A stretch of 59,866 nucleotides of DNA from Bacteroidota bacterium (GTDB lineage: Bacteria; Bacteroidota; Bacteroidia; Chitinophagales; Chitinophagaceae). Made by a program: the position numbers and the translations under genes. Of this stretch, positions 7,156 to 55,732 are shown piece after piece; positions within the stretch are counted from its first letter, which is position 1; each line of letters starts with the position of its first letter. The DNA lies in the NCBI GenBank assembly GCA_003175695.1, contig PSRA01000113.1:1-59866 (forward strand), read 5' to 3'. The notes under the pieces were generated by a model. It was not told where the DNA came from. It saw only the letters and a list, made by a program, of their open reading frames with translations, and searched no databases.

Positions 7156-7231
7156 ATTCCGTTGGTCTAGCGGCTACGATGCTCGTCTCCAAAACGATGC
7201 GACGGAGGTTCGAGTCCTCCACGGTCTGCCA
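7156..7231 (+). tRNA. tRNA-Trp (anticodon CCA)
   Basis: Exactly 76 nt with an encoded CCA end and G73. T-arm is GGAGG-TTCGAGT-CCTCC, anticodon loop CTCCAAA with CCA at 7189-7191, D-arm GTC/GAT with GG at positions 18-19. The anticodon loop, T-loop and GCCA end match bacterial tRNA-Trp. Two oddities: acceptor pairs 2-71 (T,C) and 3-70 (T,T) are mismatched and 27-43 does not pair, so the acceptor stem has only five of seven pairs. It is the only standard tRNA seen and is antisense to the late operon. It may be functional or decaying. Confidence 0.8.
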
Positions 7232-12825: not shown

Positions 12826-13095
12826 CTATTTTTCAGTCATGAAGACTTTCCCATTAAAATGTCTGGGATGATTTTTTGAGGGTTTGCCTGTAGCTTTAGT
12901 AGATGCCGACTCCGCTTTCGGCTCAGGCAACTCCTCGTGTGTCACAACCGGATACTGGAAGCGGTTCGGCAGTTCCGCTTCCTCTTCCGGTGTGACTTTT
13001 GCTTTACTTCCGAGACTGTTAAATCTCAGATACTCATCTCGGGTCAGCGGTGCGCCGACTTCCTTCATTAGTGCAAGTACAGGACTGAATGTCAT
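12826..13095 (-). CDS. Hypothetical late protein
   Basis: 89 residues from ATG 13095 (MTFSPVLALMKEVGAPLTRD), chosen because it overlaps the stop of the 1696-residue gene as ATGA and has a GGAG site; upstream in-frame codons would overlap that gene by more. The C-terminal half is Pro/Glu/Lys-rich and probably disordered. Coupled to the large virion protein, so perhaps a small partner or chaperone of it. No family recognised. Confidence 0.65.
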   Translation of the reverse strand: MTFSPVLALMKEVGAPLTRDEYLRFNSLGSKAKVTPEEEAELPNRFQYPVVTHEELPEPKAESASTKATGKPSKNHPRHFNGKVFMTEK

Positions 13096-16000: not shown

Positions 16001-18182
16001 ATGCACCACCGGGGGTCTCGATGTATACTCTTCCGCTTCCCATCTGCGGAGTCCACTTCTTGATTCGAGCGAGCTGTTCAGGGGTAATTCCTTCTTTTGG
16101 TATAGAAAGAGAAAACTCTCTCTGACCCATAGAGCCGCGTGAACGAATGCGAATTCCACCCTGCTCATTGATAAAGCGCTCGCGTGGGGCTGGGACATCA
16201 GTTGCCTTACCGCCAAGCATCTGGTCATGAATACTGCCCGGACCCATTGCGACAGGTCTTCCATCAGCAAGTATGAACGCAGCCTGACCGGGGTCATCTG
16301 CTGTGCCATACTTTTTTACCAATTCATCACCAGTAGGAAGTTTGCGGGTAGCGGCGTTCTTTGTACCTTTGCCCACCGAGCCGGGAAGTCCAGCTTCACC
16401 AGTCTCACTCTCCCACATGTCACGGGCAGCGTCTTTAATTCTGTCAACCCAAGACTGATTTTTAGACATAGCTTCAGCCACAGGTTGCATGTTACCAGAC
16501 TTCAAACCCTCGGTCAAGGCTTTAGCTGCTTCTTGATTGCTGATTGCTTCTTGGAGAATTCCGCCAGCAAGGGAGTTTCCTGCATGCTCTGCTAAAGACG
16601 CACCAGTAGCCGCCTCAATCAAAGAGCCGAAACCTCCATGAATTCCAGCCGCAATCATAGAAAGCTTAAACAGGTTCTTCAACCACGGTCCAGCTTTCGC
16701 CATCTGCTGCTGGTCATCAAGAACCTTGGACAATTCCTTAAGCTCAGAGACATGTTCTTGAGAAAGTCCCATCCGCTCAAACAATGTCGTGCCGTTCCTG
16801 TCAATCTGGTCGGCCTTGTCGATAACGTTCCGAAGAACTCTGCCCTTTACCGTCCAGTCAGCTCCCTCGATATCAGACACACCTGTAGCTTTCTTCAGCG
16901 CCTTTGCGAAGTCAGTTGCCGCCGCACCTTTGCGCCAGTTAGCCTCAGCCGTATCGACGTCCAGACCTTCACCCTTGAGCTGTTCGCGATACTGGTCATA
17001 GAAGGCTTTCTTGTCAGCGCGACCCTCGTCAATCAAAGACTGGTCGTTGGTTGCGAATCCTTTCTGAATTTTGTTCTGTGCCTGAGAAAATTTATCATCA
17101 GTCAGCTTATCCAAACGCTGAAACACAGGCTGAGCCTGCCGTTGCAGGTCTTCACCATGTGCGTTGAATCCGAAGCGGTCCTGAGGAGTCAAAGCCGACT
17201 CAGCCTCAGAGCCCATTGCCTCACCAGCTGTACCGCTGATCGCACGAGACACTTCGGGCGCGGTCTTGGTTTGGGTAAACTTTTCCGCCACTTCCGGAGC
17301 ACCAGCTGCCGTTATCCTACCTGTGCGCGTCTCCGCAAGCGTAGGAATCTGCGCTCCACGAGTCGTCTCAGTCACAGTCGGAGTAGCGTTCTCAAGGATA
17401 GCTGCCTTAGCCGCGCCTGCACCTTTAGCAACACCACGAGTCAGTGAAGGAACAAATGCAGGAATAGCGTTAGCAATGACCTCTTTCAAATTATCACGGG
17501 TCGGGTTGGCACGAAAACGTTCCATTGCTGCGTCAACGTCATTCGCGAGCGGGACCATACCAGCCGCGTGCTGCGCGGTCGCAGCCCAGTCACCCTTCTT
17601 CGCCGCTTCCATCATTCTTTCTTTTGCGACTTTACTAGACTGGAACTGCTCATCAATCATCTGATAGAGCGGGTCATTCGGGTCTTGCGGAGCGTCTGTG
17701 AACAGGTGCGTCAGAGAAGCAAGTGCGTCTCCATAATGACCTTTTCGGAATTTATCCTTGAAGTCAGCATAGACACGATGCTTTAATGCTTCAGACTCAT
17801 CCTCCATCTGCTTCTCGACATCCTCATTGGGCTGTCCGGCGAGTTGGTAGGCAATCGCTTTGCCGGGGAGTTCAATCGCTCCCTTAGCGAGACGGCCAAT
17901 ACCCGTCACACCGCCAATCGCTGCAGCCTGTGCAGTACCAAGGTCCAGACCTGCCTTCGGGCTAGGAGTCTGTGCCTCTTCTACCTTAGGAGGAATAGTT
18001 GGAGCCGGAGCAATAACTTCTTTCTTATCTCCAAGCCCCACAGATGGGACAGTGAATGAAGGCGCAATAGAAGGCTGAGAAACAGCCTGTGTTCCGTCTG
18101 GTGCCGGAGGAATGCTTCCTTGAGATTGGGGAACAATAGAGCTTCCATCAGGCGGGGCTGGAATATTATTCATGTCGCTCAT
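13092..18182 (-). CDS. Giant multidomain internal virion / polyvalent protein
   Basis: 1696 residues. Order of regions: disordered Pro/Ser-rich N-terminus; helical region with possible membrane helix (GLDLGTAQAAAIGGVTGIGR); long coiled-coil segments to about residue 650; a beta domain (FSLSIPKEGITPEQLARIKK); a segment around 870-960 (KLRAVHDLYGHAATGFEFGP, TETRGQNNWVNF) that recurs in large phage polyvalent proteins; and a C-terminal helical domain with SHEQSAAVTAALSPQNDW. Size and position among tail/internal genes match the ejected internal virion proteins of podoviruses (gp16-like). No transglycosylase motif was recognised. Confidence 0.78.
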   Translation of the reverse strand: MSDMNNIPAPPDGSSIVPQSQGSIPPAPDGTQAVSQPSIAPSFTVPSVGLGDKKEVIAPAPTIPPKVEEAQTPSPKAGLDLGTAQAAAIGGVTGIGRLAKGAIELPGKAIAYQLAGQPNEDVEKQMEDESEALKHRVYADFKDKFRKGHYGDALASLTHLFTDAPQDPNDPLYQMIDEQFQSSKVAKERMMEAAKKGDWAATAQHAAGMVPLANDVDAAMERFRANPTRDNLKEVIANAIPAFVPSLTRGVAKGAGAAKAAILENATPTVTETTRGAQIPTLAETRTGRITAAGAPEVAEKFTQTKTAPEVSRAISGTAGEAMGSEAESALTPQDRFGFNAHGEDLQRQAQPVFQRLDKLTDDKFSQAQNKIQKGFATNDQSLIDEGRADKKAFYDQYREQLKGEGLDVDTAEANWRKGAAATDFAKALKKATGVSDIEGADWTVKGRVLRNVIDKADQIDRNGTTLFERMGLSQEHVSELKELSKVLDDQQQMAKAGPWLKNLFKLSMIAAGIHGGFGSLIEAATGASLAEHAGNSLAGGILQEAISNQEAAKALTEGLKSGNMQPVAEAMSKNQSWVDRIKDAARDMWESETGEAGLPGSVGKGTKNAATRKLPTGDELVKKYGTADDPGQAAFILADGRPVAMGPGSIHDQMLGGKATDVPAPRERFINEQGGIRIRSRGSMGQREFSLSIPKEGITPEQLARIKKWTPQMGSGRVYIETPGGASRVVDYGKASSDLENAIRDIAPIKGEEPPSSKNSAAASADEFNASKGKEPIQPVAAEAHPQGKAIADAYEAMKHEPNRPAVRASYDSLKKGIDEQWDHATSQGFKFEPWEKEGQPYKNSKEMMKDVDENKHLFFFRGGEVSADHPLAEVDPETGLTYNEKLRAVHDLYGHAATGFEFGPKGEEGAYKTHAQMFDSEAVPALTTETRGQNNWVNFGKQVRDEAGNIIKKGEKGYVPPAERAYAENKAGILPSEFHAGNAETVISHIENGHPYAAFTAENPGNARLSDAENAARNQELMSDLRQKGYRPVTVEGVMENVEGQKEHSFFVPNITPEDALELGKKYGQDSVLTNDGLHILSKNTLVPVKGFVKGAEALKEPYHSVVNGHPFAVQLDWDKEAPKSDVEPTSPNLSSPGAEGAGSAEAISRETSRQAQKLRVYDVDTRKAGAKSGWTPVFGVDTADRVASPGHAIVEVDPDGNITQEISSNNARPLPKSEQIKSLIGTEGLARPEVAAEAAYRKGLAAKEIGTRQPFSASASMENDPSALAGIDALDEADRQSPSRMTQAGKPVLGIKQKLVAALADYKNNGISGLLDAANPDAAIEKFVEHAKSNLKWLYGATPEVIRNTARQWYETAHESTKKLAQDNGISHEQSAAVTAALSPQNDWNNNVGQAQRIIEHWRNDQNHAWTSKMDNSFSDIRNGGQVSEPMRRMMDTIRGKRYNQLTAKDPDALLAKKAMWIRVLDEAHSAPDTPIYAPDGSVQGSQTLAWNSIDPMAKSLSILEDGSVDNINRVMGNGHKIRNFYNNIVNPWSERGHVTVDTHQVGASMLKPFSGDDIEVMHNFGSGNRAGTPSPAKHAGTGLRGSYPVYEEAVRRAAKELGVQPRELQSITWEGIRSLMGDVKKTPELRRAINDIWAAHEDGQITLDQAREEILKASGGFSKPNWITDEQWEQSGGQSEPGQTDFAFGANQ

Positions 18183-36760: not shown

Positions 36761-37792
36761 CTAGCTGATAGCAGACGCCGCGTCGATTTGACGCTGACGA
36801 ATTGTAGTGTCTGGACCCAAAGACGTAGTAAAATGTACGCGATAAGATGTCCAGCCGGGGATCAAACCTTCCGGATCGGCAACAGTCGGCTCTGCGTTCT
36901 GCACGATGTTGCAGTTGATGTTGCGCCACTCGCCGTCACCGTAGGTCGTGTCGCCCTGTGCGCCAAGGTTAATGGCGAAGATGCCGTCACGCCCGAAGAT
37001 GTAGGTACGAAGAGCGGTGAGCCCAGTCACGCCTTGGAAGTTCGAATTCTTCGTGACAAGGTTCGTCTGGAAGAAATGAACGCCAGTGGACGGAAGCTCG
37101 ATAACTTCTGTCAGATCGACGCTGACAAGCTCTTCCATGCGGGCAAGGCCCACAGGGGTGTGCTTCAGGATGTCGATAGGAGCGTCGTTCGAGTTGTCCG
37201 CAATCACGTCGCCAAGGGCGAAGGGATGGATGACACCAGCGAATGCCTTCGATGCTTCGTCGAAAGGACGAATCGAACGGCCAGCCATAGACTGAACGCT
37301 GTTACGAATCTGCGACAGAGACAGAGCGGTGAAGCTCGATGTGCTCGTTGCAGCCAGCTGCGTCAGCACGCTGGAGTCGATGCTGTTCGCACCGTCTGCA
37401 GTCGCGCGAACCAGTGCGCTCAGAGACTCACCAAGGCGATACGACATTTCCTTCGCAACGTTCTCGACAGTAGCGTCAATCGCGGTCGCGAGAGACAGAG
37501 ACGAGAAGTTCGCGTAGTCGGCATATTCACCAATGGTCGCAGTCGTGGTCAGAACCGAAACGCTCAGGGACGAGCCCACAGTACCTTCAGTCGTCTGGGT
37601 GGTATTAGCAGCCAGCGGAACGTACATGAACATTTCGTATTGGTTACCACTCTTCCCCGGCAGATCAAGACGCTCTGCGCAAGCAACGAACGGGGTCTGT
37701 GCCTTCAGGTTCTCACGGAACCGTTTGTCGTAATACTTCACGGTGCTCTGAGGCAGGTTTGCAAGCTGGTTTCCAGCAGGAGAGAAACTCAT
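36761..37792 (-). CDS. Major capsid protein (N4-gp56-like)
   Basis: 343 residues, close to the family length. LKAQTPFVACAERLDLPGKS, FMYVPLAANTTQTTEGT, ATIGEYADYANFSSLSL and FQTNLVTKNSNFQGVTGLTA, IFGRDGIFAINLG follow the N4-gp56-type HK97-fold capsid pattern. It lies right after the scaffold gene and before the decoration protein. Assembles the icosahedral head on the scaffold. Confidence 0.88.
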   Translation of the reverse strand: MSFSPAGNQLANLPQSTVKYYDKRFRENLKAQTPFVACAERLDLPGKSGNQYEMFMYVPLAANTTQTTEGTVGSSLSVSVLTTTATIGEYADYANFSSLSLATAIDATVENVAKEMSYRLGESLSALVRATADGANSIDSSVLTQLAATSTSSFTALSLSQIRNSVQSMAGRSIRPFDEASKAFAGVIHPFALGDVIADNSNDAPIDILKHTPVGLARMEELVSVDLTEVIELPSTGVHFFQTNLVTKNSNFQGVTGLTALRTYIFGRDGIFAINLGAQGDTTYGDGEWRNINCNIVQNAEPTVADPEGLIPGWTSYRVHFTTSLGPDTTIRQRQIDAASAIS

Positions 37793-40114: not shown

Positions 40115-42286
40115 CTACTCCACGGTTGGTTGTTCACCCTCCAAACCTTGTGGAGAAGGAACGCCTTCAACTGCCTCGCTCATACCAGAAGCACGAGCTG
40201 CCTCACGGACGATGTCGCGTTTGATTCTGTTATCAGACGCCTGATCTTCCAATTGAGACTTCTGCTGGAACTTCTGCTGAGAATCAGCCTGCTTAGCCTG
40301 CACCTGTTGTGCCATGAGTGCGGCCTTAGTGTTGGCTGCGCGTTTCTTCTTCATCTCTTCCGTCATCGGTTTAATGATGTCGTTCTCGTTCTTCCATTCG
40401 GAAGCTTCGAGCCACATACGGACGATGGGCAGGTAATCAATATATTGCTCATTGATGTCTGCTAGACTGTCCTGAAGCTGCGGGTTCTGCAGAATCTGGG
40501 TCAGCATGACCAGCGATTGCGCCATCGTTCTCTTTGCAGAGAGCGAAGCTCCAGCCAAGACCTCGTAATTAATATGGGCGTTCCAAAATTTCTGCATGTC
40601 AATGGTCTTCAGAAATTCGTCGCCCTTGATTTTCCCAAGGATTGCCTGAATCGCGTGATCGGACATCACGTTAAAAATAAGCATGTCAATGACACCGAGA
40701 AACGGTTTAAAGACCTGCTCAATGAAGTTGTCGAGTGGACCGTCAAGGCGAGTTGCCGACGCTCCTGCTAAAAGGTTTGCGCCGCTAGCAGTACGACCCA
40801 TAGATGTTCTTGGTCCAGCTGTTGAGCCCTGAACCAATGTCTGATCTGCGCCGGAAGTAGACTCTGTGGCCTGCTCCGACTCTCTCAAAGCATTCCATAG
40901 ATCGGAAGGAACCTTCGGAGTTTCCAGAAGCTTGTAGCCACCGTCTTTCGTGTTCGCGACAGTGATGATCTTACCAAGATTGGTACGAATCATCTGTGTA
41001 GGAGCATTGTCATCCCGGTTACGCATATAGACGGGATTTGCGCCAAAAGAAAGAATCTTCAGGATAGCGTTGATGCTGCCCTGATCGACGCGCTGGTTCT
41101 GTCCAACGATGATTCCAAGTCCCATGCCGTAGAAAGCGCGCGGGCGATTCCACCAGTTTGCCGACAAGAAAGGAATCTGCTTGAACTCGTTTTCTCCGGA
41201 ATAGATCACAGTGTTGTTATTGAACACGATGATCTTTCTTCCTTCATCCCAATATTCCAGAATCTCTTTCTTACTTCTTAGTTGGTCAGGACTGACTTGG
41301 ACGTTTACCTTCTCGGAATGATGCACTACGCCTTGAATGTGCGCGGTGTTCTCCGTGCCTAAATTGATCTGCGCTTGGCTATTGTTAGCCCAGAATTTCA
41401 TCAGGTCTTCCTCACTGGGGAATTTCCACCCAGTGACGGAGTCGCCTGTTTCTTTGTTCTTAATCGCGCCTTCTATGGACTCTTTGAGAGCCTTCATCTG
41501 ATAGAAGTCCATGTACCGAACATCAATGACCCAACGGGCCTGTCTGATGTCCGCGACATTGAGCTGCGGGTCCACGAGGACTTTGTCTATCGGACGCCAT
41601 TCGAAGAACGGTAGAGGAACTACTTTATCTTCAACAACGATGTCAGGAGGAACCTCTGTAGGAATAGAGGCGGTCTCGACATTTTCTCCTTCACCGACTG
41701 TGAGCGGGATGCTGGTTGATTTGCGCTTCCGGGTCGTGATCGTCTTCCAATCATAGCCCCATTTCCAGATACCAGTACCGAGCAGAGACATCTGCTCAAG
41801 TCCCCACTTGGTCTGATTCTTGAAGTCACAAGAATCCAAGATGTATGACATCAAGGCTTTCTTGGAATCAACAATCTCCTGCGGGGTGCCCGGACGCGGG
41901 CGAAGCAGCATCGGTGGGTCATCATAAAACAGACCCTTGTAAAGCTGCGGAACGACCGCATTACAAACCTTGGCAACGGTGAAACGCTGGACGTTAGGTT
42001 CCAGAACGTATGTATTTTCGTACACCGTCATTGGGCGCGGAGATTGGAATAAAAGGTCTGCATCACGCCACAGCAAAGACCACTGCTTGCCGATAATAAA
42101 CTTGCGGGCCATTTCAGAAGACTGAACGACCAGAGCAAGCTCATCCTGCGTTGTTTTCAAAGAGCCGTCTGTGTTGTAATCATCTGCATGGAGCTGCCCT
42201 TTGTGGGCGACTACAGACGAGCTTTCCAGTTCGTCTAGCGTGATTGTGCCCACAGTTGGGGTGGAGTTCTCTGCCATGTCAGACAT
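40115..42286 (-). CDS. Portal protein
   Basis: 723 residues, usual size for podovirus portals. N-terminal wing/clip pattern (FIIGKQWSLLWRDADLLFQS), TKWGLEQMSLLGTGIWKWGY, PFLSANWWNRPRAFYGMGLG, IIVGQNQRVDQGSINAILKI and the C-terminal helical barrel (KKKRAANTKAALMAQQVQAK). It is immediately downstream of the terminase. Forms the dodecameric DNA entry ring. Confidence 0.9.
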   Translation of the reverse strand: MSDMAENSTPTVGTITLDELESSSVVAHKGQLHADDYNTDGSLKTTQDELALVVQSSEMARKFIIGKQWSLLWRDADLLFQSPRPMTVYENTYVLEPNVQRFTVAKVCNAVVPQLYKGLFYDDPPMLLRPRPGTPQEIVDSKKALMSYILDSCDFKNQTKWGLEQMSLLGTGIWKWGYDWKTITTRKRKSTSIPLTVGEGENVETASIPTEVPPDIVVEDKVVPLPFFEWRPIDKVLVDPQLNVADIRQARWVIDVRYMDFYQMKALKESIEGAIKNKETGDSVTGWKFPSEEDLMKFWANNSQAQINLGTENTAHIQGVVHHSEKVNVQVSPDQLRSKKEILEYWDEGRKIIVFNNNTVIYSGENEFKQIPFLSANWWNRPRAFYGMGLGIIVGQNQRVDQGSINAILKILSFGANPVYMRNRDDNAPTQMIRTNLGKIITVANTKDGGYKLLETPKVPSDLWNALRESEQATESTSGADQTLVQGSTAGPRTSMGRTASGANLLAGASATRLDGPLDNFIEQVFKPFLGVIDMLIFNVMSDHAIQAILGKIKGDEFLKTIDMQKFWNAHINYEVLAGASLSAKRTMAQSLVMLTQILQNPQLQDSLADINEQYIDYLPIVRMWLEASEWKNENDIIKPMTEEMKKKRAANTKAALMAQQVQAKQADSQQKFQQKSQLEDQASDNRIKRDIVREAARASGMSEAVEGVPSPQGLEGEQPTVE

Positions 42287-42295
42287 TCATTTCTC

Positions 42296-44299
42296 CTAGC
42301 CCATGAGGTCGGCAAACGGGTCAATGTTGACTGGTTCTGCCGCGTCCTGCATGGCTTGCTTCATTGCTTCCTGCGGTGACATCTGATGCTCAAGCATTAA
42401 GTCTTGAATATTCTGCTTAGCATACTTTCCGAGACAATACGTTTGGTCATAAAACGATTTCATCTTCGGGTCTGGAGTATAACTAGCCTGCTGAGCCGTC
42501 AGCTTGCCCTCCATGTCTGCGTAGCTTGAGAATTGTCCAATGAGTAACGAGAGTGCGTCAACGATGTCGTCGTGTGTCGAGGCCGCTGTGCCGAACTTTT
42601 CCAACTCATCATACATCTCTTCTTTTCCCGGCATCGTGTAAGAGAACAACAAACGCTCATCGCCAAGAAACCTGAGAACAGGTTTGGCTTTCGTCATTTT
42701 GTTGTTCGCCTTGTTGCCTTTTCCAAGAGAGACAAATTCTAGCGGCGAGCGGACTTTTAGCTTGTCCATCTCACGATAAATTTCTCGACCAATCCATTTC
42801 ACGCCAACAGATTCTTCAATACAGATTCTAGAAGGCTTCCACTTCGCGGCAGTCGCGGCGACAATCGCCGGAAGATCATACTCATTAAATCGACCGCGCT
42901 GCATGTCAATGACGTAAAACTTGCCACCGTAAATCAAGGCTGTGATGATGACTGTGTAGTCCGCCCAGCTTTGAGTGGAGTACGCGGTATCAACCGTACT
43001 GACTACCATACCTGTTCCGGGTATCAAGTTCGATTGTATCGTGCGGCGAATGAGAAGCTCGCGCGGGAACTTGACGATGTGCATCTGAGTCGGATCATTC
43101 AGATACTTAATCGCGAAATAAGGGTCAGTTTTTTTCTTTTTACGAAGAAAATCGTAGGTCAACCGTCCCGGCTCGTTGAACCAGAGACTGTAGTCCTGCT
43201 CAGACATTTCCTCTTCAATCTTACCCTGCTGCTGCGCGTTCTTGTTTGCCCACCACGCGGCACGGATATAAATCTTAGTCGGAAATTCTTCACCTTCTTC
43301 CAAGAACTTTTTCTCGTTCTTGATGATTTGCCCGTAAACATCTTCGGAGTCATACCACGTTCCGATGATGTCATAAAAACCATACGGGTGGAGCATCGCT
43401 TGGTTGATACTGACCTGTTTGTTGACTGCTTTCAGTCGGTCAATCGTCAAGCTGTTTTCGTTCGTGACTACGTCATCAAGCTTTAGGACGTCAAAGTGCC
43501 AACCAGTCAACGACTGCTCGATAGATGCGGCTGTGACAGAACTTTCTTTCTGAACTACTGCGCAGGCAGGAGTCTGATACTCGTAACCTTTTCCATCGTC
43601 TTTCGGAATGCAGTGTTCAGGGAACAAAACCTGAAATAGGATCGGAGTTCCGTCAACCCAAGAGCGAGCTTTGAAATTCTTCTTCGTCGCAAAAAGGTCA
43701 GCGTACGTGTCATCTGCATCCTCTAATGTGAAGTGGCCCTTGATTTCTCCGACGAAGTCTTTCGCCAAGTCAAGCACACCAGTCAAGACCAGAATAGTTA
43801 TCTCCGGCCAGCAAATGACATACTGAACGCAGTCCGCCATATCCATCGAGGACTTAAAACCGCCGCGAGGCACGAGCAGAAGGCGCTCTTTCTTTTCTAT
43901 GTAGCTGTTTGCAAAATCTTTGAAGGTAATTGTGGTCGGGTCTTTGCGAACAAAGAACTCGTTACAAATCTCCTCATGAGTGTTGTGGACTTTTCCGTCT
44001 CCCTTTTGCTCCTGATCCCAAACATATTCTTTGTCCGAGACATCCTGATATTTCTGAAGCAACTTGCAAAGGAAGAATAAATTTGTCTGCGCCATGAATC
44101 GAGCGCGCGCAATAAACTCGATGTCAGTAATGTCGTACTGTTTGCAGACTTTAATGACTTTGAGTTTTTGTTCTTTGGAGAGTCGGTTGAAGCTTACGTC
44201 AGCCCTTGCCTGAATTTCTTCCCAAGTAAAATTTCTAAACTGGTAATTAGGATCGTTTTTATGCTTCTCAACTAATGCCTGAAGTTCCCCCACCTTCAT
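42296..44299 (-). CDS. Terminase large subunit
   Basis: 667 residues from ATG 44299 (MKVGELQALVEKHKND), with TGGAGAAAAG before it; the start lies inside the last 32 bases of an endonuclease gene. ATPase: variant Walker A in LLLVPRGGFKSS (about 141-151), EITILVLTG, DVLKLDDVVTNENS (Walker B-like). Nuclease: VVSTVDTAYSTQSWADYTVI, CIEES, and HDDIVDALSLLIGQF supply the RNase H-type acidic residues. Packages DNA into the procapsid through the portal. Confidence 0.92.
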   Translation of the reverse strand: MKVGELQALVEKHKNDPNYQFRNFTWEEIQARADVSFNRLSKEQKLKVIKVCKQYDITDIEFIARARFMAQTNLFFLCKLLQKYQDVSDKEYVWDQEQKGDGKVHNTHEEICNEFFVRKDPTTITFKDFANSYIEKKERLLLVPRGGFKSSMDMADCVQYVICWPEITILVLTGVLDLAKDFVGEIKGHFTLEDADDTYADLFATKKNFKARSWVDGTPILFQVLFPEHCIPKDDGKGYEYQTPACAVVQKESSVTAASIEQSLTGWHFDVLKLDDVVTNENSLTIDRLKAVNKQVSINQAMLHPYGFYDIIGTWYDSEDVYGQIIKNEKKFLEEGEEFPTKIYIRAAWWANKNAQQQGKIEEEMSEQDYSLWFNEPGRLTYDFLRKKKKTDPYFAIKYLNDPTQMHIVKFPRELLIRRTIQSNLIPGTGMVVSTVDTAYSTQSWADYTVIITALIYGGKFYVIDMQRGRFNEYDLPAIVAATAAKWKPSRICIEESVGVKWIGREIYREMDKLKVRSPLEFVSLGKGNKANNKMTKAKPVLRFLGDERLLFSYTMPGKEEMYDELEKFGTAASTHDDIVDALSLLIGQFSSYADMEGKLTAQQASYTPDPKMKSFYDQTYCLGKYAKQNIQDLMLEHQMSPQEAMKQAMQDAAEPVNIDPFADLMG

Positions 44300-44690
44300 G
44301 ATCTTTTCTCCATTTATCAATGTAATCGGCAGCGGCCCTAAGCCACTCTGGATTTTCTTGGAAAAGACCTATAGCAATATTTATATCAGGGGCAAGTAGC
44401 TGTCTGCGCTTTCCGGATATGTGAGAATGATCCACCACCAATCTTCTCTTTGCTGGCGACTGTTTACTGATAGCGCAAACCCCGCCTTGATCCTTCAGCA
44501 TTTTCTTATAAATCTGAAGGTCAATGCCATAGTTTCTTTTTATCTTGGTGTTATAAACAGATTCAGGATTTTCTTTCTGCCAAATTTTTGAGGCGAGTCT
44601 ATGACAAATCCTACATCTGGAATCACCTTTTGGAGAACGATAGAGATTCTCCGCAACACGCGGGTGCCCTCTCTTACAATGTGTTTTCAT
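44268..44690 (-). CDS. Degenerate endonuclease VII-family protein next to terminase
   Basis: 140 residues from ATG 44690 (MKTHCKRGHPRVAENLYRSP). The N-terminal knuckle (HCKRGH, RCRICH) and the catalytic DHSH in RLVVDHSHISGKRR remain. However, the first zinc CxxC has become CAIS and the usual LLCxxCN has become LLAPDIN, so three of four core zinc cysteines are missing. It is either inactive or altered in fold. It overlaps the terminase start by 32 bases and has the full two-hairpin leader. Confidence 0.82.
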   Translation of the reverse strand: MKTHCKRGHPRVAENLYRSPKGDSRCRICHRLASKIWQKENPESVYNTKIKRNYGIDLQIYKKMLKDQGGVCAISKQSPAKRRLVVDHSHISGKRRQLLAPDINIAIGLFQENPEWLRAAADYIDKWRKDHEGGGTSGIS

Positions 44691-46981: not shown

Positions 46982-47656
46982 CTAATTGTAATCATTCCAG
47001 TCAATGGTCAAACCATCACTGGCGTAGCGGATCAGTCCTCCCCTAGACTTCCTCTTTGCCTCTGGAACTATCTCGAATTCCCCGTGATTGGCCTGTTCGT
47101 AAATAACAAGCGGACGCATGTCAGGGAAAGCTTGGTACCTAAAATTTTTCTTCAATGCCTCTACGACCTGTCCGTCTGCAGAGTAGTCGTTGTTTTCTGG
47201 GAAAATCGGCTGACAGACTCTCTTTGAAACGAACATGCAAGAGCCCGTCTTATGAATTCCCGGTGGATCATGAAAGCAGCGTTTGCCGCGAGACAAGACC
47301 GGGAATATCGCCCAATCTCCAGTCACTTTTTCCAAAGACTGAAGCACGTTGTCATCAGAAAAATAATCATCGTCATCTATGTAAAAGATGTATTCGCCCA
47401 CTGCCTGAGCGAAAGCAAAACGTCGCGCGCTATTGCCGCAATCGTTCTGATGAGGCTTTCCGATGTAGTGAAATTTCCTGCGCGCGTCCTTCTGGACCGC
47501 GTCTAAATTTTCCTGCCGCTCAGCGTTGAATTTTGGAGGCGGAACATCGACGACTACAATGTGCTCCCAATCGCCGTTTGTCTGTGCGTCTATAGAATCA
47601 CAAAGACGCTTGAGCGTTGGTCTGCAGAGTGTCGGTGTGATTATACTGTAGCGCAT
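46982..47656 (-). CDS. Glycosyltransferase, GT-A family 2-like
   Basis: 224 residues from ATG 47656 (the ATG directly before it is also possible). RYSIITPTLCRPTLKRLCDS, then IVVVDVPPPK and the metal-binding run YIFYIDDDDYFSDDNV (DxD) define a GT-A fold. C-terminal end LIRYASDGLTIDWNDYN closely resembles the end of the next upstream transferase. Probably transfers a nucleotide-activated sugar to DNA, virion protein or cell-surface polymer; the acceptor is unknown. Overlaps upstream gene by its start. Confidence 0.82.
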   Translation of the reverse strand: MRYSIITPTLCRPTLKRLCDSIDAQTNGDWEHIVVVDVPPPKFNAERQENLDAVQKDARRKFHYIGKPHQNDCGNSARRFAFAQAVGEYIFYIDDDDYFSDDNVLQSLEKVTGDWAIFPVLSRGKRCFHDPPGIHKTGSCMFVSKRVCQPIFPENNDYSADGQVVEALKKNFRYQAFPDMRPLVIYEQANHGEFEIVPEAKRKSRGGLIRYASDGLTIDWNDYN

Positions 47657-48612
47657 CATCCCCTCGCCCATTGATCGAACCAGTCGATTGTCAGTCCGTC
47701 TGCTGCATATTTTGTAGGACCAGTCATACGAATTGGTTTCGGGGCAGGCATGTAAGGCTCGTCTTCGACTTTTATAGTCGGTTGCCAATGCTCAGTGATT
47801 TTCGGTGCCCACGCGTTTCCGCGTTCGTATTGATGAACGATGCAGTACGGCTCACTCTGCCCGTGCGGATAGGCCACGCCATTTCTCAACTCAGGCGGAT
47901 TGTTTCTAAGTAGGGATCGCTGACCAATCGGCCTGTCAGGATTGCCGACGACATCACCAATCAACCACCAGCCTGCGGTGAGAATGAAGCCCTCGTCCCA
48001 TTTCGGTACCCGCGAAACATTTTTGAATTCCGGGTCCGTGCGAAGAAGCATATTCAAAATCGCTTGGTCGTCTCCGAAGCGGTCAATTGATTTCTGATAC
48101 ATCTTTCGAGTCAAACGCTTGACAGCATCAGCTTCGCCAGCCACAGTTCCGGCGCACAGAATTTCTTCATTAGCTAGAAGTTGTCTTCCAGAAACTCCGT
48201 AGACTTTTTCAACCCATTGCGGGTTGGCGAATTCGTCTCGATAGAGAATAAACTCTGACGCGCCCCAGACTTTGTCATCAGGATTCTGTTCCATCCATAC
48301 AGACGGATCACGCTGAATGACCACGTCCTTGACATCACAGTGAATCGCGTACCGAACAGCACTCTGTGCTTCCAGCCAATCAGAAAAAAGCTTGAATCGC
48401 TGAATGACTGTGTTCAGTTCTTTCTTTTCGTAGTCAATCAACTCAAAACCGAGCTTTGTCAATGTGCTTCTAGCGATTGAAGAGATGTTGTTGACGAACA
48501 AAACTTTTCTTCCGGAGAAGCCGGACTCACTCAGGGACACAGCGTAATTTTTGAACTGCGGCCAAGAATAGTTTGTCGCGGTACCTACAATTACATCGTT
48601 GGTCCTGTCCAT
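47656..48612 (-). CDS. Glycosyltransferase-like protein
   Basis: 318 residues from ATG 48612 (MDRTNDVIVGTATNYSWPQF) with GGAGGAAG. The sequence KNYAVSLSESGFSGRKVLFV, YAIHCDVKDVVIQRDP and FGDDQAILNMLL follows the GT-A nucleotide-diphospho-sugar transferase pattern (CDVKDVV in the DxD position). It ends TKYAADGLTIDWFDQW, almost the same as the next enzyme's end, so the two share a C-terminal tag. Second of three tandem transferase genes. Confidence 0.78.
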   Translation of the reverse strand: MDRTNDVIVGTATNYSWPQFKNYAVSLSESGFSGRKVLFVNNISSIARSTLTKLGFELIDYEKKELNTVIQRFKLFSDWLEAQSAVRYAIHCDVKDVVIQRDPSVWMEQNPDDKVWGASEFILYRDEFANPQWVEKVYGVSGRQLLANEEILCAGTVAGEADAVKRLTRKMYQKSIDRFGDDQAILNMLLRTDPEFKNVSRVPKWDEGFILTAGWWLIGDVVGNPDRPIGQRSLLRNNPPELRNGVAYPHGQSEPYCIVHQYERGNAWAPKITEHWQPTIKVEDEPYMPAPKPIRMTGPTKYAADGLTIDWFDQWARG

Positions 48613-49283
48613 TGCTTCCTCCGCTGCTCGAACACGCGCATCACTTCCGGAACACATGAGTGATAGGCTGAGCAAGCAGGAGAAACTTTTTCAGGATCGA
48701 CTTTATAGCCGTTGCCCCACTCGTTGTGAATGGACTCGATGTGGTTCATCGGTATTTTGTTGGTCTGCATCACGCTGCCAATCCAAACATCATCGGCCCA
48801 GTTCGTGATCTTTGCAGAAATTATCAACTGCATTGCCCGTCTGCTAAGAAACATGCAGCCACCGGGGTGAAAATCTTTTTCGGAAGAACCAGAGTAATCG
48901 TGCTCTCTCCAGTTTGTGGCCAAAAGTCTTTCGGGATAAATGAAGGTGTCATCGTCCGCGCGTAAGATGTAGTCGTAACCGTGCGCGCGAGCCCATTTAC
49001 AAATCTCAACCATCTTCTGCGGGTTGCTCGTGTAGTTATCGCCGCAAGGCAGAAAGACTTCATCAGGGAGTGGCGAGCGCTGTACTCGACCACCATTGCG
49101 AAGGGTTGAGCCGTAAAAAAACTTGTAATCAATACCGTTTAGGTGCTGCGCCCATGTCTCGCGGATAGTCTGAACTCTCTGCTTCTGGTCCAAACAGCGG
49201 CGCGGGGTGTTGAAATCAACTGTCAGATCGTCGATGTAGTAATCGAGGCGGTGACAGGTCATGACTGCGACTAAGAGCTTCAT
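48591..49283 (-). CDS. Glycosyltransferase, GT31-like (galactosyltransferase/fringe type)
   Basis: 230 residues. QKQRVQTIRETWAQHLNGID, YDYILRADDDTFIYPERLL (DDD metal site), GGCMFLSRRAMQLIISAKIT and ADDVWIGSVM follow the GT31 family order: RxxxRxTW, DDD, GG-Y/F-LS, EDVxxG. Such enzymes are more common in eukaryotes and large phages. Expected beta-1,3 transfer; acceptor unknown. First enzyme of the trio, with a hairpin-rich leader and GGAGGG site. Confidence 0.82.
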   Translation of the reverse strand: MKLLVAVMTCHRLDYYIDDLTVDFNTPRRCLDQKQRVQTIRETWAQHLNGIDYKFFYGSTLRNGGRVQRSPLPDEVFLPCGDNYTSNPQKMVEICKWARAHGYDYILRADDDTFIYPERLLATNWREHDYSGSSEKDFHPGGCMFLSRRAMQLIISAKITNWADDVWIGSVMQTNKIPMNHIESIHNEWGNGYKVDPEKVSPACSAYHSCVPEVMRVFEQRRKQWTGPTM

Positions 49284-49875: not shown

Positions 49876-50478
49876 GTGTCTAAAGATCGTGACGATTTCG
49901 TGAAGATCAGGCGTGGTGTGTTTGAGCATCTTTCAAAGGGCTGGATGACCGCCGATATGTTGGTCATGTACATGTGCCTTCTTGATGGATGTGATTGGAA
50001 GACAGGGGTTTGGAAAGGTTCAGCTAAAAGATTGTCCAAACTTCTCGGATGGAAAGTCAGAAAAACTCAACGTGTATTTAGTAAACTAGACGACGCGCGT
50101 TACATCACTTCCAAGTACGTTGCTGATGGAAACAACCTTGAGTATGATGTCCTGATTAACAACTATACCCCTCCTAACTCTAAGACTACAGTGAGAATGC
50201 GACCGACCAAAGCAGGCCTTAACCGCGTCAAAAATGACGCACCCCCCTGCGTCAAAAATGACGCGGATCAGCGTCAAAAACGACGCACCCCTGCGTCAAA
50301 TTTGACGACTAAATACTCAGATTTAGAATCTACAGATTATATATCAGAAGGGGAAGCCCCTAAAAATTTGAAAACTTCAACACATTCATCACTCGGACAG
50401 GAGTCCGACCAAGAGTTGCGCGCGCGGCGGTTCGCGGCGGCAAGGGCTCAACAGAGACGGGAGAACGGCCTTGAGTAA
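49876..50478 (+). CDS. Replication initiator-like winged-helix protein containing the putative origin
   Basis: 200 residues from GTG 49876 (VSKDRDDFVKIRRGVFEHLS). I chose this because it follows GGAGGG and the promoter -10 box; upstream in-frame codons would lie before the transcript start. Residues ~20-90 form a winged helix (WMTADMLVMYMCLLDGCDWK, WKGSAKRLSKLLGWKVRKTQ, RVFSKLDDARYITSKYV) like phage replisome-organiser N-domains. The linker is encoded by four iterons; the C-terminus is basic (RARRFAAARAQQRREN). Precedes DNA polymerase, overlapping by 8 bases. No helicase-loader domain visible. Confidence 0.75.
   Translation: MSKDRDDFVKIRRGVFEHLSKGWMTADMLVMYMCLLDGCDWKTGVWKGSAKRLSKLLGWKVRKTQRVFSKLDDARYITSKYVADGNNLEYDVLINNYTPPNSKTTVRMRPTKAGLNRVKNDAPPCVKNDADQRQKRRTPASNLTTKYSDLESTDYISEGEAPKNLKTSTHSSLGQESDQELRARRFAAARAQQRRENGLE
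50225..50308 (+). repeat. Four dyad iterons, putative replication origin
   Basis: GCGTCAAAAATGACGC at 50225-50240 and 50249-50264, GCGTCAAAAACGACGC at 50271-50286, and GCGTCAAATTTGACGA at 50293-50308. Each is an inverted repeat of GCGTCA/TGACGC; spacing is 24, 22 and 22 bases, about two helical turns. An AT-rich stretch follows (to about 50350). Repeats plus AT-rich tract inside an initiator gene is the layout of lambda ori in gene O. Confidence 0.75.
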
Positions 50479-52951
50479 GCTTGATACAAAAACATTGAAC
50501 CCACCCCTGAGTGTCACGGTCGTTCGCGACCAAGCTGGGGTAGACGAGCTTGTCAACTGGCTTCTTGCCCATCCAGAAGTCGGGCTGGACTGCGAAACCA
50601 CCCCTGTCAAGTTCTTCCAGCCTCGCAAAATGCGCCTGCTCCAGTTTGGAGACCGAGACAGGCAGTTTGTCGTCGATCTGCTCGACTTCGTGGACAGAGA
50701 CCCTGACGCTCTGCGGGACGCTCAGGGATTTTTTGGTATCAATTTACACAAATACCCAAAGCTTGAAGCTTTCCTCAAGTCGGTTCGCCCGTTTCTGGAA
50801 TCCGGGCTCTGGCTCAAGGTCGGGGTCAACCTCTGGTTCGAATACATTTGCCTCTACTGGAGCTTCGGTATCCGCTCTTGGAATTTTTATGACTGCCAGC
50901 TCGCGGAACGCGTCATCTATGCCGGAGGGCACTCTCTGAAGGATTTTGAGTTCTTCGACATGGAGAACATGATGCTCCGCTACTTCAACGTGGAGATTGA
51001 CAAGACCTTTCAGACAAGCTTCGATGTCGATAATGAACTGAGTGAAGCGCAGTATGAGTACGCAGCGCTCGACGTTCGTTTTCCGTTTGCGATTCGAGTC
51101 AAGCAGCTGAAGACCGGAGAGAAGGCCGGATTAGTCCGAACATTTCGCACCGAGAATGAGGCCATCGGCAGTTTTGCTGATATGCATGCTCACGGTGAGA
51201 AACTTGATATCGCGAAATGGAACGCCAACACGCAGGACGCTGAGAATAAGCGAGCAGAGGCTCTCGGGAAACTTGACGGGTTCTTTCTACCCATCTGCGG
51301 TTCAAAGAACGACATCGTGACTGACGCGATGGTTGAAGAAGCGACCGCTGTCTGGAAAAAATTCAATGAGGTCACTGAGGAAGAGCTTTCAATCAAAGCT
51401 TCGATTAAAGAGGCAAAGAAATCCAAAGACCTGCCGCAATTCACGGCGCTGGAGATGCTGCTCACTCAGAAAGTCGAGAACCGTAAAGCCGAGAAAGACC
51501 ATTACAAGAAAATAGCGGGCGACCTCGGCAAGCGGCGCACGCAGCAGAAAAAGATTTTGGAGAAATGCCAAGGTCAGGCGCTGGTCAATTATGATTCGAA
51601 CGCGCAGGTCTACAAAATTTTGGTTGAAAATTTCCCGGCTCTGAAGGAACTTGAGAGCACGAATGACGAGGATTTAAAGATATTTGCCTCAGTTTTTGAG
51701 AGTGATGGTAAGACTATAAAAATTCCGGGCGACCCACTTATCGACGCTCTGCGCGACTATCGTGAATGGGATAAACGGGTCAAGACTTACGGATACCTGT
51801 GGACGACTGAATGGGTCAATCGCCCTTGTTCAGACGAAGGCTGGCTTTCGCCATACACGCACCGTCTACACTCAATGTACAACCAGCTCATGGCTGAGAC
51901 TGGTCGGACGTCAAGCGATAACCCAAACGGGCAAAATCTCCCGCGAGGCGCTGAGGTCCGGTCGTGCTTTATCGCTGACGAGGGATATGTCTACATCACG
52001 ATTGACATGTCAGGCGCTGAGCTTCGCATTCTCGCTGAGGAAGCGAAAGCGAAGATTTGGATTGATGCATTCAACGCAGACGAGGACGTTCACTCAATTT
52101 GTACGGAGATTATTTTCCCCGAAGAGTGGATGGCTGAAGCAGAAGAGGGCTGCGCCTATTACAAAATTGATCCGAAGACGGGTAAGGCCGCTCACAAAAA
52201 ATGCAAATGTAAAAAACACAAGGCGCGCCGCGAAGTCACGAAGACACTGAACTTCGGAATCGCATACGGCATGGAAGCTGCGACCCTGGCTGCTCGCGCT
52301 GGCATTCCGCAGGAAGAAGCTGAGCATGTCTTCGAGGTCTGGAAAATTAAGTTTGCGGAAATCTGGAATTACCTGCAGGAGTCTGGATTCAAGACAAAAC
52401 AGGACGGCGCGAGCTATACGATGTACGGTCGCCGCCGACTCTTCCCACCGCCGACGCAGGAGCGCGCGCGCAAGAAGTGCATCGAGGATTATCCGGAAAA
52501 GCTGGAGTTCTCCGAGATTCAACAAGAGCAGAACATCGCTGAGTTCATCGCGCAGAACGGACGCAAGCCGAACAAGGAAGAACGTTTTTGGTTGACTCAT
52601 AGAGAGCCCAATCAGAAGCAGCTGACACGGGCGTTCATCGCTATCTCGCGAGGAATTGAGAGGGCAGGCAAGAACCACCGCATCCAAGGAACAAACGCAG
52701 ACATCATCAAAATCGCAATGGGAAGCGGCAAGTCCCCGAAGGGTCGGCCCTACCTGTTTCACACATTGCGTTTACTCAAGGCGAAGCTGGTCAAGATGGT
52801 ACATGACGAGCTGGTCATTATGGCTCCGAAAGAAAATGCCGACAGAGTAGCAAAGCTCGTAGGCATCGCTTTCCGAACTGCCGCCGCAGAGCGTATGACC
52901 AAAGTAACGATGGAAAACGAGCACAAGGTCTCTCACTGCTGGGAGAAATAG
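50471..52951 (+). CDS. DNA polymerase, family A, with 3'-5' exonuclease domain
   Basis: 826 residues from TTG 50471 (GGGAG before it). Exonuclease: LDCETTPVKFF (D39, E41), VGVNLWFEYICLY in the second motif (Glu where Asp is usual) and YAALDVRFPF (YxxxD). Polymerase: DMSGAELRILAEEA (motif A, about 512), KTLNFGIAYGMEAA (motif B, about 591), MVHDELVI (motif C, about 778). A Lys/Cys-rich insert (AHKKCKCKKHKARR) sits just before motif B. No 5'-nuclease domain. Replicates the phage genome. Confidence 0.95.
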   Translation: MSKLDTKTLNPPLSVTVVRDQAGVDELVNWLLAHPEVGLDCETTPVKFFQPRKMRLLQFGDRDRQFVVDLLDFVDRDPDALRDAQGFFGINLHKYPKLEAFLKSVRPFLESGLWLKVGVNLWFEYICLYWSFGIRSWNFYDCQLAERVIYAGGHSLKDFEFFDMENMMLRYFNVEIDKTFQTSFDVDNELSEAQYEYAALDVRFPFAIRVKQLKTGEKAGLVRTFRTENEAIGSFADMHAHGEKLDIAKWNANTQDAENKRAEALGKLDGFFLPICGSKNDIVTDAMVEEATAVWKKFNEVTEEELSIKASIKEAKKSKDLPQFTALEMLLTQKVENRKAEKDHYKKIAGDLGKRRTQQKKILEKCQGQALVNYDSNAQVYKILVENFPALKELESTNDEDLKIFASVFESDGKTIKIPGDPLIDALRDYREWDKRVKTYGYLWTTEWVNRPCSDEGWLSPYTHRLHSMYNQLMAETGRTSSDNPNGQNLPRGAEVRSCFIADEGYVYITIDMSGAELRILAEEAKAKIWIDAFNADEDVHSICTEIIFPEEWMAEAEEGCAYYKIDPKTGKAAHKKCKCKKHKARREVTKTLNFGIAYGMEAATLAARAGIPQEEAEHVFEVWKIKFAEIWNYLQESGFKTKQDGASYTMYGRRRLFPPPTQERARKKCIEDYPEKLEFSEIQQEQNIAEFIAQNGRKPNKEERFWLTHREPNQKQLTRAFIAISRGIERAGKNHRIQGTNADIIKIAMGSGKSPKGRPYLFHTLRLLKAKLVKMVHDELVIMAPKENADRVAKLVGIAFRTAAAERMTKVTMENEHKVSHCWEK

Positions 52952-53877: not shown

Positions 53878-54258
53878 TTGAGAAGCAAAGCTGAATACAA
53901 CGCTTATAAGCGTAAATATAGGTCTGAAAATCCTGAATACAGAGACAAAGAAAAGAAGAGACAGGCAAGAGCCAGCATTGAAAGAAAAGAAAGAGTCCTA
54001 ACGCACTACGGTGGTGGAAAAGTAAAATGTCGCTGGGAAGGGTGCGGAGTTTCAGACATAGATGTTCTATCCATAGATCATGTTTTTGATGATGGCGCTG
54101 AACATCGAGAAAAAATTTGTGGGAGCAAGCACACTAAGGTAGACATTTACCGATGGTTGGAGGCAAACGGCTTTCCTGAAGGTTATCAAACTCTTTGTTT
54201 AAACCATCAGTTTAAAAAAGAAATTCTTCGCAGAAAACGCGAAAGAAAATGGATGTAA
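53878..54258 (+). CDS. HNH endonuclease beside the tmRNA locus
   Basis: 126 residues from TTG 53878 (no in-frame ATG near it; GGAAG precedes). Very basic N-terminus (YNAYKRKYRSENPEYRDKEK) then KCRWEGCGVSDIDVLSIDHV, FDDGAEHREKICG and FPEGYQTLCLNHQFKKEILR: an HNH centre (DH...N) in which one zinc Cys is replaced (LCLNH rather than LCLNC). The stop is 6 bases before the tmRNA acceptor piece. The only endonuclease gene on the right arm. Confidence 0.82.
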   Translation: MRSKAEYNAYKRKYRSENPEYRDKEKKRQARASIERKERVLTHYGGGKVKCRWEGCGVSDIDVLSIDHVFDDGAEHREKICGSKHTKVDIYRWLEANGFPEGYQTLCLNHQFKKEILRRKRERKWM

Positions 54259-54264
54259 TGAAGT

Positions 54265-54690
54265 TTGCAATGTTAATTATCGGACGCGGCTTCGATGCCG
54301 CCACGTCCACCAAAGCGGTCACGAAAGAAGAGCCCAGATACTCCTAGCTAGTGATGGGACAATCAAGTACCGACCGCTTCGATGGGCGTGAACTTGGATT
54401 CGACGGTGATTAAACAATGCAATCTACATCTCGGAATGATGTGGCCTGCCGACAGTGCCTAGACACAGAAGGGCGTACGCTCGACTGTTGCGGTCAATTG
54501 GACACATAACCTAGAAATGCTGAGACTAAACCTCTCGCTTTCGCTGCTGCGGCCTAGTGCCAAAGCGGGGCTCAGGAGACGGCCTGCCAACAGAAAGTCT
54601 CCGTGATCTTTAAAGCGATGGGATACAAGAGCGCCAGACTGGCTGCGGTTGCAAGGCCCACGTAACGGCTAAGGACATGAAAGCCGTGTC
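54265..54690 (+). ncRNA. ssrA: Circularly permuted two-piece tmRNA
   Basis: Acceptor piece about 54265-54312: P2 strand, CGGACGCGG, T-arm GCGGC/GCCGC, CACGTCC, A, CCA. Spacer 54313-54383 closed by AAGCGGTC/GACCGCTT. Coding piece from 54384: GGGCGTG, TTGGATTCGACGG, P2 partner, tag frame, pseudoknot-like stems (GGAGAC/GTCTCC; ACGGCT/AGCCGT), end about 54690. GGGCGTG pairs with all 7 bases of CACGTCC, with G3-U70 (alanine identity) and A73. Tag frame 54519-54557: AETKPLAFAAAA, stop TAG. It would rescue stalled ribosomes and tag their products. The T-loop has only 6 nt. Confidence 0.88.
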
Positions 54691-54985: not shown

Positions 54986-55136
54986 GGCCCACATCTTTAT
55001 CAGAACTATGCCAGCACTCATGGCGGCAGAGTGTTTGATTGCTGCTGCCATTTGTGCGTACGATCACCAGTGGAAGCTGGTCTTTTACTGGCTCTCAGCA
55101 GCCAGCATCAACGCTTCGGTCGCGAGTCTATCATGA
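54978..55136 (+). CDS. Small two-helix membrane protein
   Basis: 52 residues from TTG 54978 (ATG 55008 is an alternative; GAGGAC supports the TTG). Two hydrophobic segments (PALMAAECLIAAAICAY and LVFYWLSAASINASVASL) around DHQWK. Overlaps genes on both sides by a few bases, as expected in this packed early operon. Function unknown; could act in the host envelope. Confidence 0.6.
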   Translation: MDKAHIFIRTMPALMAAECLIAAAICAYDHQWKLVFYWLSAASINASVASLS

Positions 55137-55732
55137 ATCTCTTCTTCACAGCCGACGAGCACTACGGGCACCGCAACATCATCACATATTGCAAGCGCCC
55201 GTTCTCTGACGTCATTGAGATGCGCGAGAAACTTATCGCGCTGCACAACTACACCGTCCCTAACGTTAAGGACTCAGTCACCGTTCATCTCGGTGACATG
55301 TTCTGGGACACAGTCAGTGCGGAGGAAGCAATCTCCATCGTCTCCCGGCTAAATGGAAAGCACACATTCATTCGCGGCAATCACGGGAACAAGCTGTTTG
55401 ACCGAGGGTTGCTCGACGAGTATTTCATCAGCATTGCGGACGTCAAGATGCTGCATGTCGGTGAGCGAAAGATTTGGATTTCGCATTACGCGCACCGAGT
55501 CTGGCCGGACTCACACAAGGGCGCTTATCATCTTTTCGGGCACTCGCACGGAGAGCTAAGTGTACAACACGGTCGCTCACTGGACGTTGGAGTTGACGTT
55601 CACAATTTCAAACCGTTGTCTTTTGACGAAATTGAAAAATTCATGCAAGCTATCCCGGTCCCAGTGCTTCCGCCAAAAGAGCAGGGGCTGAAGACTTGGC
55701 CGACCGACCACCTTGAGGAGGGAAGTCATTGA
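55133..55732 (+). CDS. Calcineurin-like metallophosphoesterase
   Basis: 199 residues from ATG 55133. MNLFFTADEHYGHRNII (D8, H10), VTVHLGDMFWDT (GD), HTFIRGNHGNKLFD (GNH), IWISHYAHR (H) and YHLFGHSHGEL (GHxH) give a complete two-metal phosphoesterase site. Resembles phage enzymes of nucleic-acid or cyclic-nucleotide metabolism; substrate unknown. Start overlaps the previous stop (ATGA). Confidence 0.88.
   Translation: MNLFFTADEHYGHRNIITYCKRPFSDVIEMREKLIALHNYTVPNVKDSVTVHLGDMFWDTVSAEEAISIVSRLNGKHTFIRGNHGNKLFDRGLLDEYFISIADVKMLHVGERKIWISHYAHRVWPDSHKGAYHLFGHSHGELSVQHGRSLDVGVDVHNFKPLSFDEIEKFMQAIPVPVLPPKEQGLKTWPTDHLEEGSH

Follow-up and report, generated by a model that had tools for sequence, protein, structure and literature searches.

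The two-piece tmRNA of Caulobacter was described by Keiler et al. in 2000 (as told in PMC3985003), and the same source attributes the processing of two-piece tmRNAs probably to RNase P and tRNase Z. The gene described here shares its gene order and fits the same two-piece model of function, but the Caulobacter tmRNA is bacterial and its function has been shown experimentally, whereas the function of ours is predicted from sequence. It lies in a window (the whole stretch of DNA analysed, 59,866 nucleotides) that corresponds to an entire contig, C201 of bin G000.

Permuted tmRNAs are already known from phages as a kind. OM43 phage Melnitz has a two-piece tmRNA, and among 18,146 phage genomes 402 had a tmRNA, with 133 unique structures and 53 predicted two-piece forms; a tree legend has phage tmRNAs sharing the cyanobacterial, gammaproteobacterial and alphaproteobacterial lineages (PMC9004378). 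Melnitz and other marine phages resemble the window in carrying a permuted ssrA on the phage genome, but Melnitz, a myophage of OM43, has an ssrA of alphaproteobacterial type and also a glutamine riboswitch (PMC9004378), whereas the one known host in the lineage of the window is an acidobacterium, from a phylum that usually has one-piece tmRNA. The permuted-tmRNA model RF04321 was built, and 79 phage tmRNA sequences were listed, in PMC11915505; ten phages with ssrA are listed, and an inhibitory role is suggested for that of DS6A, in PMC4131195; tmRNAs and SmpB are reported from huge phages (PMC7162821), and tmRNAs from Bradyrhizobium phages (PMC12656738).

We also found permuted tmRNAs in Xanthomonas phage XacN1 (AP018399) and in four other Xanthomonas/Stenotrophomonas phages (OR797040, PQ569993, KU682439 and OQ427096) picked from 51 matching records. 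These are phage-borne permuted genes like that of the window, but the three of the five that exceed the cut-off of a clade model are of beta type, and all belong to different phages. Their Xanthomonas and Stenotrophomonas hosts presumably use one-piece tmRNA. The gene of OR797040 is annotated as ssrA; that of XacN1, at 37201–37621 (L002:1442-1862) with the tag ANANTFDYALAA, has no annotated feature, and its second blastn place in the same record is probably a long terminal repeat. ARAGORN also calls permuted tmRNAs with a common tag, DTENITANAPKAMAMAAAA, in two IMG/VR contigs of 41 and 456 kb (L034 and L035). The five named phages, together with the 53 predicted two-piece forms, run against the suggestion, made in an initial sequence-only reading of the window, that a permuted tmRNA might be new to phages. 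For the phage lineage of the window and its relative Tunturi_3 this seems to be the first report, none having been found in the literature searched.

The phage contig and its permuted tmRNA gene

The contig is that of a phage, since it encodes a terminase large subunit, a portal protein and a family A DNA polymerase (Table 1); no exact terminal repeat was found on it. Its best named relative is Tunturiibacter phage Tunturi_3 (terminase 45.6% and polymerase 38.1% identical; the polymerase is 35.3% identical to that of Tunturi_4), a podovirus of an acidobacterium from Finnish soil (PMC11924767), and from this kinship we infer that the window phage is a podovirus too. Elsewhere on the contig there are a tRNA-Trp(CCA) at 7156–7231, on the strand opposite to the adjoining large ORFs; a 1696-residue protein (13092–18182) whose C-terminal half matches DUF7178 and DUF3293 and, weakly and under the cut-off (25.9 bits), S-adenosylmethionine lyase; and three adjoining ORFs at 46982–49283 with glycosyltransferase matches (PF00535; phrog_1579, weak; PF01762) and relatives in L090 and L095. 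The last 60 bases are tandem CACTCACTCAGT-like repeats, perhaps an assembly break point.

Table 1. Features of the permuted tmRNA gene and of neighbouring phage genes in the window.
Feature	Position	Strand	Basis
Acceptor piece (P2 5′ strand, T-arm, acceptor 3′ strand, A73, CCA)	54251–54312	+	RF04321 match start at 54251; ARAGORN
T-stem and loop, GCGGC-TTCGAT-GCCGC	54286–54301	+	Sequence; stem 5/5 pairs, loop 6 bases
Acceptor 3′ strand CACGTCC (54302–54308), discriminator A (54309), encoded CCA (54310–54312)	54302–54312	+	Sequence
Spacer (intervening sequence), 71 nt, closed by AAGCGGTC/GACCGCTT; removal predicted	54313–54383	+	Pairing test; precursor fold
Coding piece	54384–54605 (3′ end approximate)	+	RF01849 match to 54605; 3′ hairpin
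Acceptor 5′ strand GGGCGTG	54384–54390	+	7/7 pairs with 54302–54308, including G3-U70
P2 3′ strand, opposite 54252–54281	54405–54430	+	Minimum-energy structure; cognate pairing test
Frame of the tag AETKPLAFAAAA, closed by a stop codon; resume codon GCT	54519–54557	+	ARAGORN; comparison of tag frames
3′ hairpin GGAGAC/GTCTCC; AACAGAA at 54589–54595	54575–54580/54597–54602	+	Sequence
Family A DNA polymerase, upstream neighbour used as anchor	50471–52951	+	Pfam PF00476 7.1e-57; best-covered named relatives Tunturi_3 and Tunturi_4
ORF related to Tunturi_3 gene annotated phosphoesterase, downstream neighbour	55031–55732	+	tblastn to L087, L089 and L085; L085 annotation; no Pfam match
Terminase large subunit	42296–44320	-	phrog_38 7.7e-46; 45.6% identical to Tunturi_3
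Portal protein	40115–42286	-	phrog_332 1.6e-14; phrog_1216 3.8e-11

The contig carries a permuted tmRNA gene, acceptor half first, at 54251–54605. There are several features of interest. First, the acceptor strands GGGCGTG and CACGTCC form all seven pairs, G3-U70 among them, and the second is followed by A73 and an encoded CCA; the coding piece opens with the first of these strands and continues with AACTTGGATTCGACGG. Second, the T-stem is fully paired (5/5), although the loop TTCGAT has six bases against the seven expected. Third, the P2 pairing described in the sequence-only reading is present but longer than had been stated, being extended by GATGTA (54252–54257) opposite TACATC (54425–54430). 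Fourth, the start of the acceptor piece overlaps the end of an ORF at 53878–54258. All of the tmRNA elements named in that reading were recovered at their positions, including the seven-pair acceptor stem with G3-U70 and A73, the closed spacer, whose helix reappears in the precursor fold, and the tag frame ending in a stop codon. Its outer limit of 54690 was probably too generous: the 3′ hairpin stops at 54602, and we therefore place the end of the RNA probably near 54605, with ARAGORN giving 54648.

The sequence-only reading had proposed a covariance search as its check, and two models score above their gathering cut-offs: RF04321 (cmscan) at 54251–54557 with 66.4 bits (cut-off 47, E 1.3e-10), and the alphaproteobacterial model RF01849 (alpha_tmRNA, local cmscan) at 54190–54605 with 51.4 bits, just above its gathering score of 50. 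ARAGORN likewise calls a permuted tmRNA (tmRNA*), at 54221–54648, with the tag AETKPLAFAAAA. The gene has the acceptor, T-arm, P2 and coding-piece 5′ domain of both models, but departs from them in its six-base T-loop and in a resume codon as far along as nucleotide 136 of the coding piece. Its identification as a permuted tmRNA gene of a phage, as had been claimed, is thus upheld by RF04321, RF01849 and ARAGORN, as well as by the compensatory changes in nine sequences and the phage-gene neighbours in relatives described below.

When the precursor (54251–54607) is folded without constraints, P2, the T-arm, the acceptor stem and the spacer helix are all recovered together (z -1.93; 4 of 100 shuffles equally good). 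The coding piece folded alone is no more stable than its shuffles (z 0.41, a value equalled by 125 of 200) with tools that do not predict pseudoknots, and promoter and terminator scans likewise gave scores no better than shuffles. The layout as a whole, taken as CCACCA plus a fully pairing 7-mer beginning GG plus a TTCGAC/T motif, occurs once in the window and in none of 200 dinucleotide-shuffled windows.

Conservation in related phages

A lineage of soil phages has conserved the permuted tmRNA gene. With the polymerases of the window, G060 and Tunturi_3 aligned as query, 16 IMG/VR records proved to have a full-length polymerase relative (40–54% identity), four weak local matches (L113–L116) being excluded; of these 16, 11 score above the RF04321 cut-off. 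G060 and G062 are among the 11; both had already been found from the terminase side, and G060 is in the query alignment. The five records with no match (G459, G460, G061, G461 and G059) carry little weight because they stop 0.25–1.8 kb past the polymerase. Ten of the 11 have the tmRNA on the same strand as the polymerase, 0.5–4 kb downstream; the exception is G467, with the two at opposite ends of the record. Searching from the terminase side gave an RF04321 match in 2 of 34 records, many of them short. Not all terminase relatives carry the tmRNA, since the long records G077 (58 kb), G065 (36 kb) and G084 (34 kb) have no RF04321 match; no polymerase relative was seen in the parts of these three that were compared. 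The polymerase as a single query found no confirmed relative among viral contigs or genome contigs, and when the phage collection was searched at the nucleotide level, neither the tmRNA nor the first 24 kb of the window brought up a relative, apart from a T-arm match that led to the tmRNA of XacN1.

Tunturi_3 itself (PP885686) has a permuted tmRNA at L085:38173-38397 on the minus strand (RF04321, 63.3 bits), 1.2 kb past the polymerase gene, where no gene is annotated. As in the window, it lies between the DNA polymerase and phosphoesterase genes, on the same strand, but the genome is 97.6 kb long and the tag frame has 29 codons, ending MLAA (by eye). The main text of the Tunturi_3 paper (PMC11924767) contains neither 'tmRNA' nor 'ssrA'. 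ARAGORN reports no tmRNA in Tunturi_3, G458 or G468, though RF04321 is above cut-off in each. Within L085:37751-38397 the permuted tmRNA is followed by two tRNA-like genes (RF00005, 54.6 and 34.8 bits), among which may be the tRNAs given in the paper on this phage.

The 13 sequences available reduce to nine distinct ones when identical copies are merged (G062 with G060; G462, G463 and G465 with G464), and these are 43–60% identical (mean 49.4%). The acceptor halves were positioned, and the starts of the tag frames chosen, by eye with the Rfam alignments as a partial guide, a procedure that favours pairing. In the acceptor stem all 63 of 63 pairs are formed, with both-sided changes at 4-69, 5-68 and 6-67; when acceptor halves are shuffled among phages the mean is 51.3 pairs and 0 of 20,000 shuffles reach 63, shared descent being ignored. 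G3-U70 and A73 are present in all nine, and CCA is encoded in eight, G060 having CTG instead. Cognate P2 halves pair at a mean of -24.5 kcal/mol against -20.3 when swapped (9 of 20,000 permutations as good, again ignoring shared descent), but in five of the nine rows and seven of the nine columns some swapped partner does at least as well as the cognate. Spacers range from 25 to 93 nt; the ends of the four that exceed 50 nt pair at -13.7 to -18.3 kcal/mol, values that have no shuffle control, and end pairing says little about the five under 50 nt because their 25-nt ends overlap. The T-loop of G458 reads TAGCATAT. Only the window (51.4 bits) and G458 (59.9) reach a clade-specific Rfam cut-off (alpha, 50), and the other seven fit beta best, at 38.8–69 bits, under its cut-off of 84.

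Tag frames of the nine sequences, with starts taken by eye, run from 12 to 36 codons, eight ending in Ala and five in -AA, and AACAGAA follows the tag in all nine. The resume codon of the window, at coding-piece nucleotide 136, compares with 86–97 in the other eight, and in G464 and Tunturi_3 this codon is apparently GTC. For G462–G465 ARAGORN gives a different tag, GKADEWIFMGSVGG. In G060 and G062, whose stretches (L083 and L084, 1501–1721) are identical though they come from different metagenomes, the tag ends AGR and is followed by two stops. The phage tags differ in sequence and length from the bacterial tags compared, ANNNLALAA in one Acidobacteria MAG and GNTQYAMAA, shared by two genomes from the genus to which the bin belongs.

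The tmRNA would depend on host SmpB, since no SmpB (PF01668) was found in eight relative phage records or on the window contig; the copy in bin G000 is on contig C116. Tunturi_3 has a gene (W01, PP885686, 82469–82807) whose annotation is a release factor with an RF-1 domain (PF00472, 36 bits, cut-off 35), possibly a second ribosome-rescue factor, and no such gene was found in seven IMG/VR relatives.

Host of the phage

The bin to which the contig was assigned was considered as the host and set aside. It contains 22 matches to the T9SS sorting domain PF18962, 18 of them above cut-off, and among 14 control genomes only Bacteroides matched this domain, which we take to be a mark of Bacteroidota. 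Six sampled contigs of the bin have a G+C content of 0.419 and a strong Shine-Dalgarno sequence before 3 of 78 genes, compared with 0.507 and 19 of 65 in the window; because of these differences misbinning is the likelier reading, and G000, which looks like Bacteroidota, is probably not the host of the phage. The values in Tunturi_3 are 0.513 and 43 of 134, and its cultured host, Tunturiibacter psychrotolerans X5P2, is the only known host in the phage lineage of the window. An acidobacterial host is therefore more likely than the organism of the bin, even though strong Shine-Dalgarno sequences precede just 3 of 34 genes at the one Acidobacteria MAG locus sampled, which argues against it. A terminase alignment gave one distant match among genome contigs, 27% identical, in an Acidobacteria MAG.

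One-piece tmRNA is the usual form both in the phylum of this kind of host and around the bin. RF00023, the one-piece model, is above cut-off in 104 of 119 genomes from the phylum of one Acidobacteria MAG (L134), leaving 15 of 119 with no such match, and in 32 of the 39 genomes surrounding the bin; G000 itself, whose completeness is 78.8%, gave no match. RF04321 is above cut-off solely in the window's own contig, whether among 58 genomes around the bin or among 396 genomes of its order (bin included in both), with matches under the cut-off in 9 of the 396; stricter filters were used for scans of more than 40 genomes (the sets of 58, 119 and 396). Some Acidobacteriota genomes may nonetheless have a permuted tmRNA gene.

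Possible roles of the phage tmRNA

The order of the gene, its pairing, identity elements and open tag frame, the compensatory changes and the conservation in relatives together show a complete permuted ssrA gene of a soil phage related to Tunturi_3. We think it very probable that the gene is functional, its product being most likely a working two-piece tmRNA that uses host SmpB and alanyl-tRNA synthetase. A precursor would be transcribed from the phage gene, and host RNase P and 3′-end processing enzymes would cut away the spacer and flanks, leaving two pieces that pairing in the acceptor stem and in the long P2 would keep together. The acceptor piece would be charged by host alanyl-tRNA synthetase, as G3-U70 and A73 predict, and brought by host SmpB into stalled ribosomes, which would resume on the tag frame and append AETKPLAFAAAA; the phage would thereby gain a ribosome-rescue supply of its own during infection. 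Several results weigh against this reading: the unusual T-loops of the window and G458, the AGR ending and unencoded CCA of G060/G062, the lack of an SmpB match in the phage records searched, the long terminase relatives with no RF04321 match, the mere 2 of 9 sequences that pass a clade model, the swapped P2 partners that do as well as cognate ones, and the coding-piece fold and promoter and terminator scans that do not exceed shuffles.

Other roles can be imagined. It is improbable, though there is a precedent in the tag-less tmRNA of mycobacteriophage DS6A (PMC4131195 and PMC11915505), that the phage RNA is a decoy whose tRNA-like domain would titrate SmpB or block stalled ribosomes and so inhibit host trans-translation, as has been argued for DS6A. 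The AGR ending of G060/G062, together with the CCA that is not encoded, could mean that tagging was lost in that branch, but a decoy needs no tag frame, and one of 12–36 codons is found in all nine distinct sequences, with Ala at the end of eight. Less improbable, if still unlikely, is that the RNA is functional and serves mainly to add a phage-specific tag with a fate unlike that of the host tag, be it slower, faster or no proteolysis; as a special case of a working tmRNA, this shares part of its probability. Both the dissimilarity of the phage tags to ANNNLALAA and GNTQYAMAA and the AGR ending common to two metagenomes would suit such a role, whereas the prevalence of Ala (8 of 9) and -AA (5 of 9) ends would not, these being endings that fit ordinary degradation signals.

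A captured host ssrA or an attachment-site relic of prophage excision, carried as a passenger with no function, might be expected given that ssrA is a frequent integration site of phages and islands (PMC12656738 and PMC4131195). This is extremely improbable here: the gene is complete, stays near the DNA polymerase across the lineage and shows both-sided changes at 49% identity, and one-piece tmRNA prevails in the phylum of the only host known. On these grounds we set the relic aside.

Returning to the working two-piece tmRNA, a broader proposal can be put forward tentatively, as possible but on balance doubtful: that these genes form a phage-borne permuted tmRNA lineage separate from the three described bacterial ones, kept vertically in phages of Acidobacteriota and working in hosts with one-piece tmRNA, with fast-changing tags of 12–36 residues, some of which (AGR in G060/G062) would perhaps no longer lead to proteolysis, so that the phage would control ribosome rescue and choose the fate of its tag.

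What is unusual in this lineage is that its gene form does not match the one usual in the phylum of its only known host, and that its tags evolve freely. The silence of ARAGORN on Tunturi_3, G458 and G468 is a warning that permuted tmRNA genes are missed in annotation. A phage tmRNA of a form foreign to its host would allow the purpose of phage tmRNAs to be tested cleanly, because the two RNAs are separable by size, number of pieces and tag, and the test is feasible because the cultured phage Tunturi_3 carries an unannotated permuted tmRNA.
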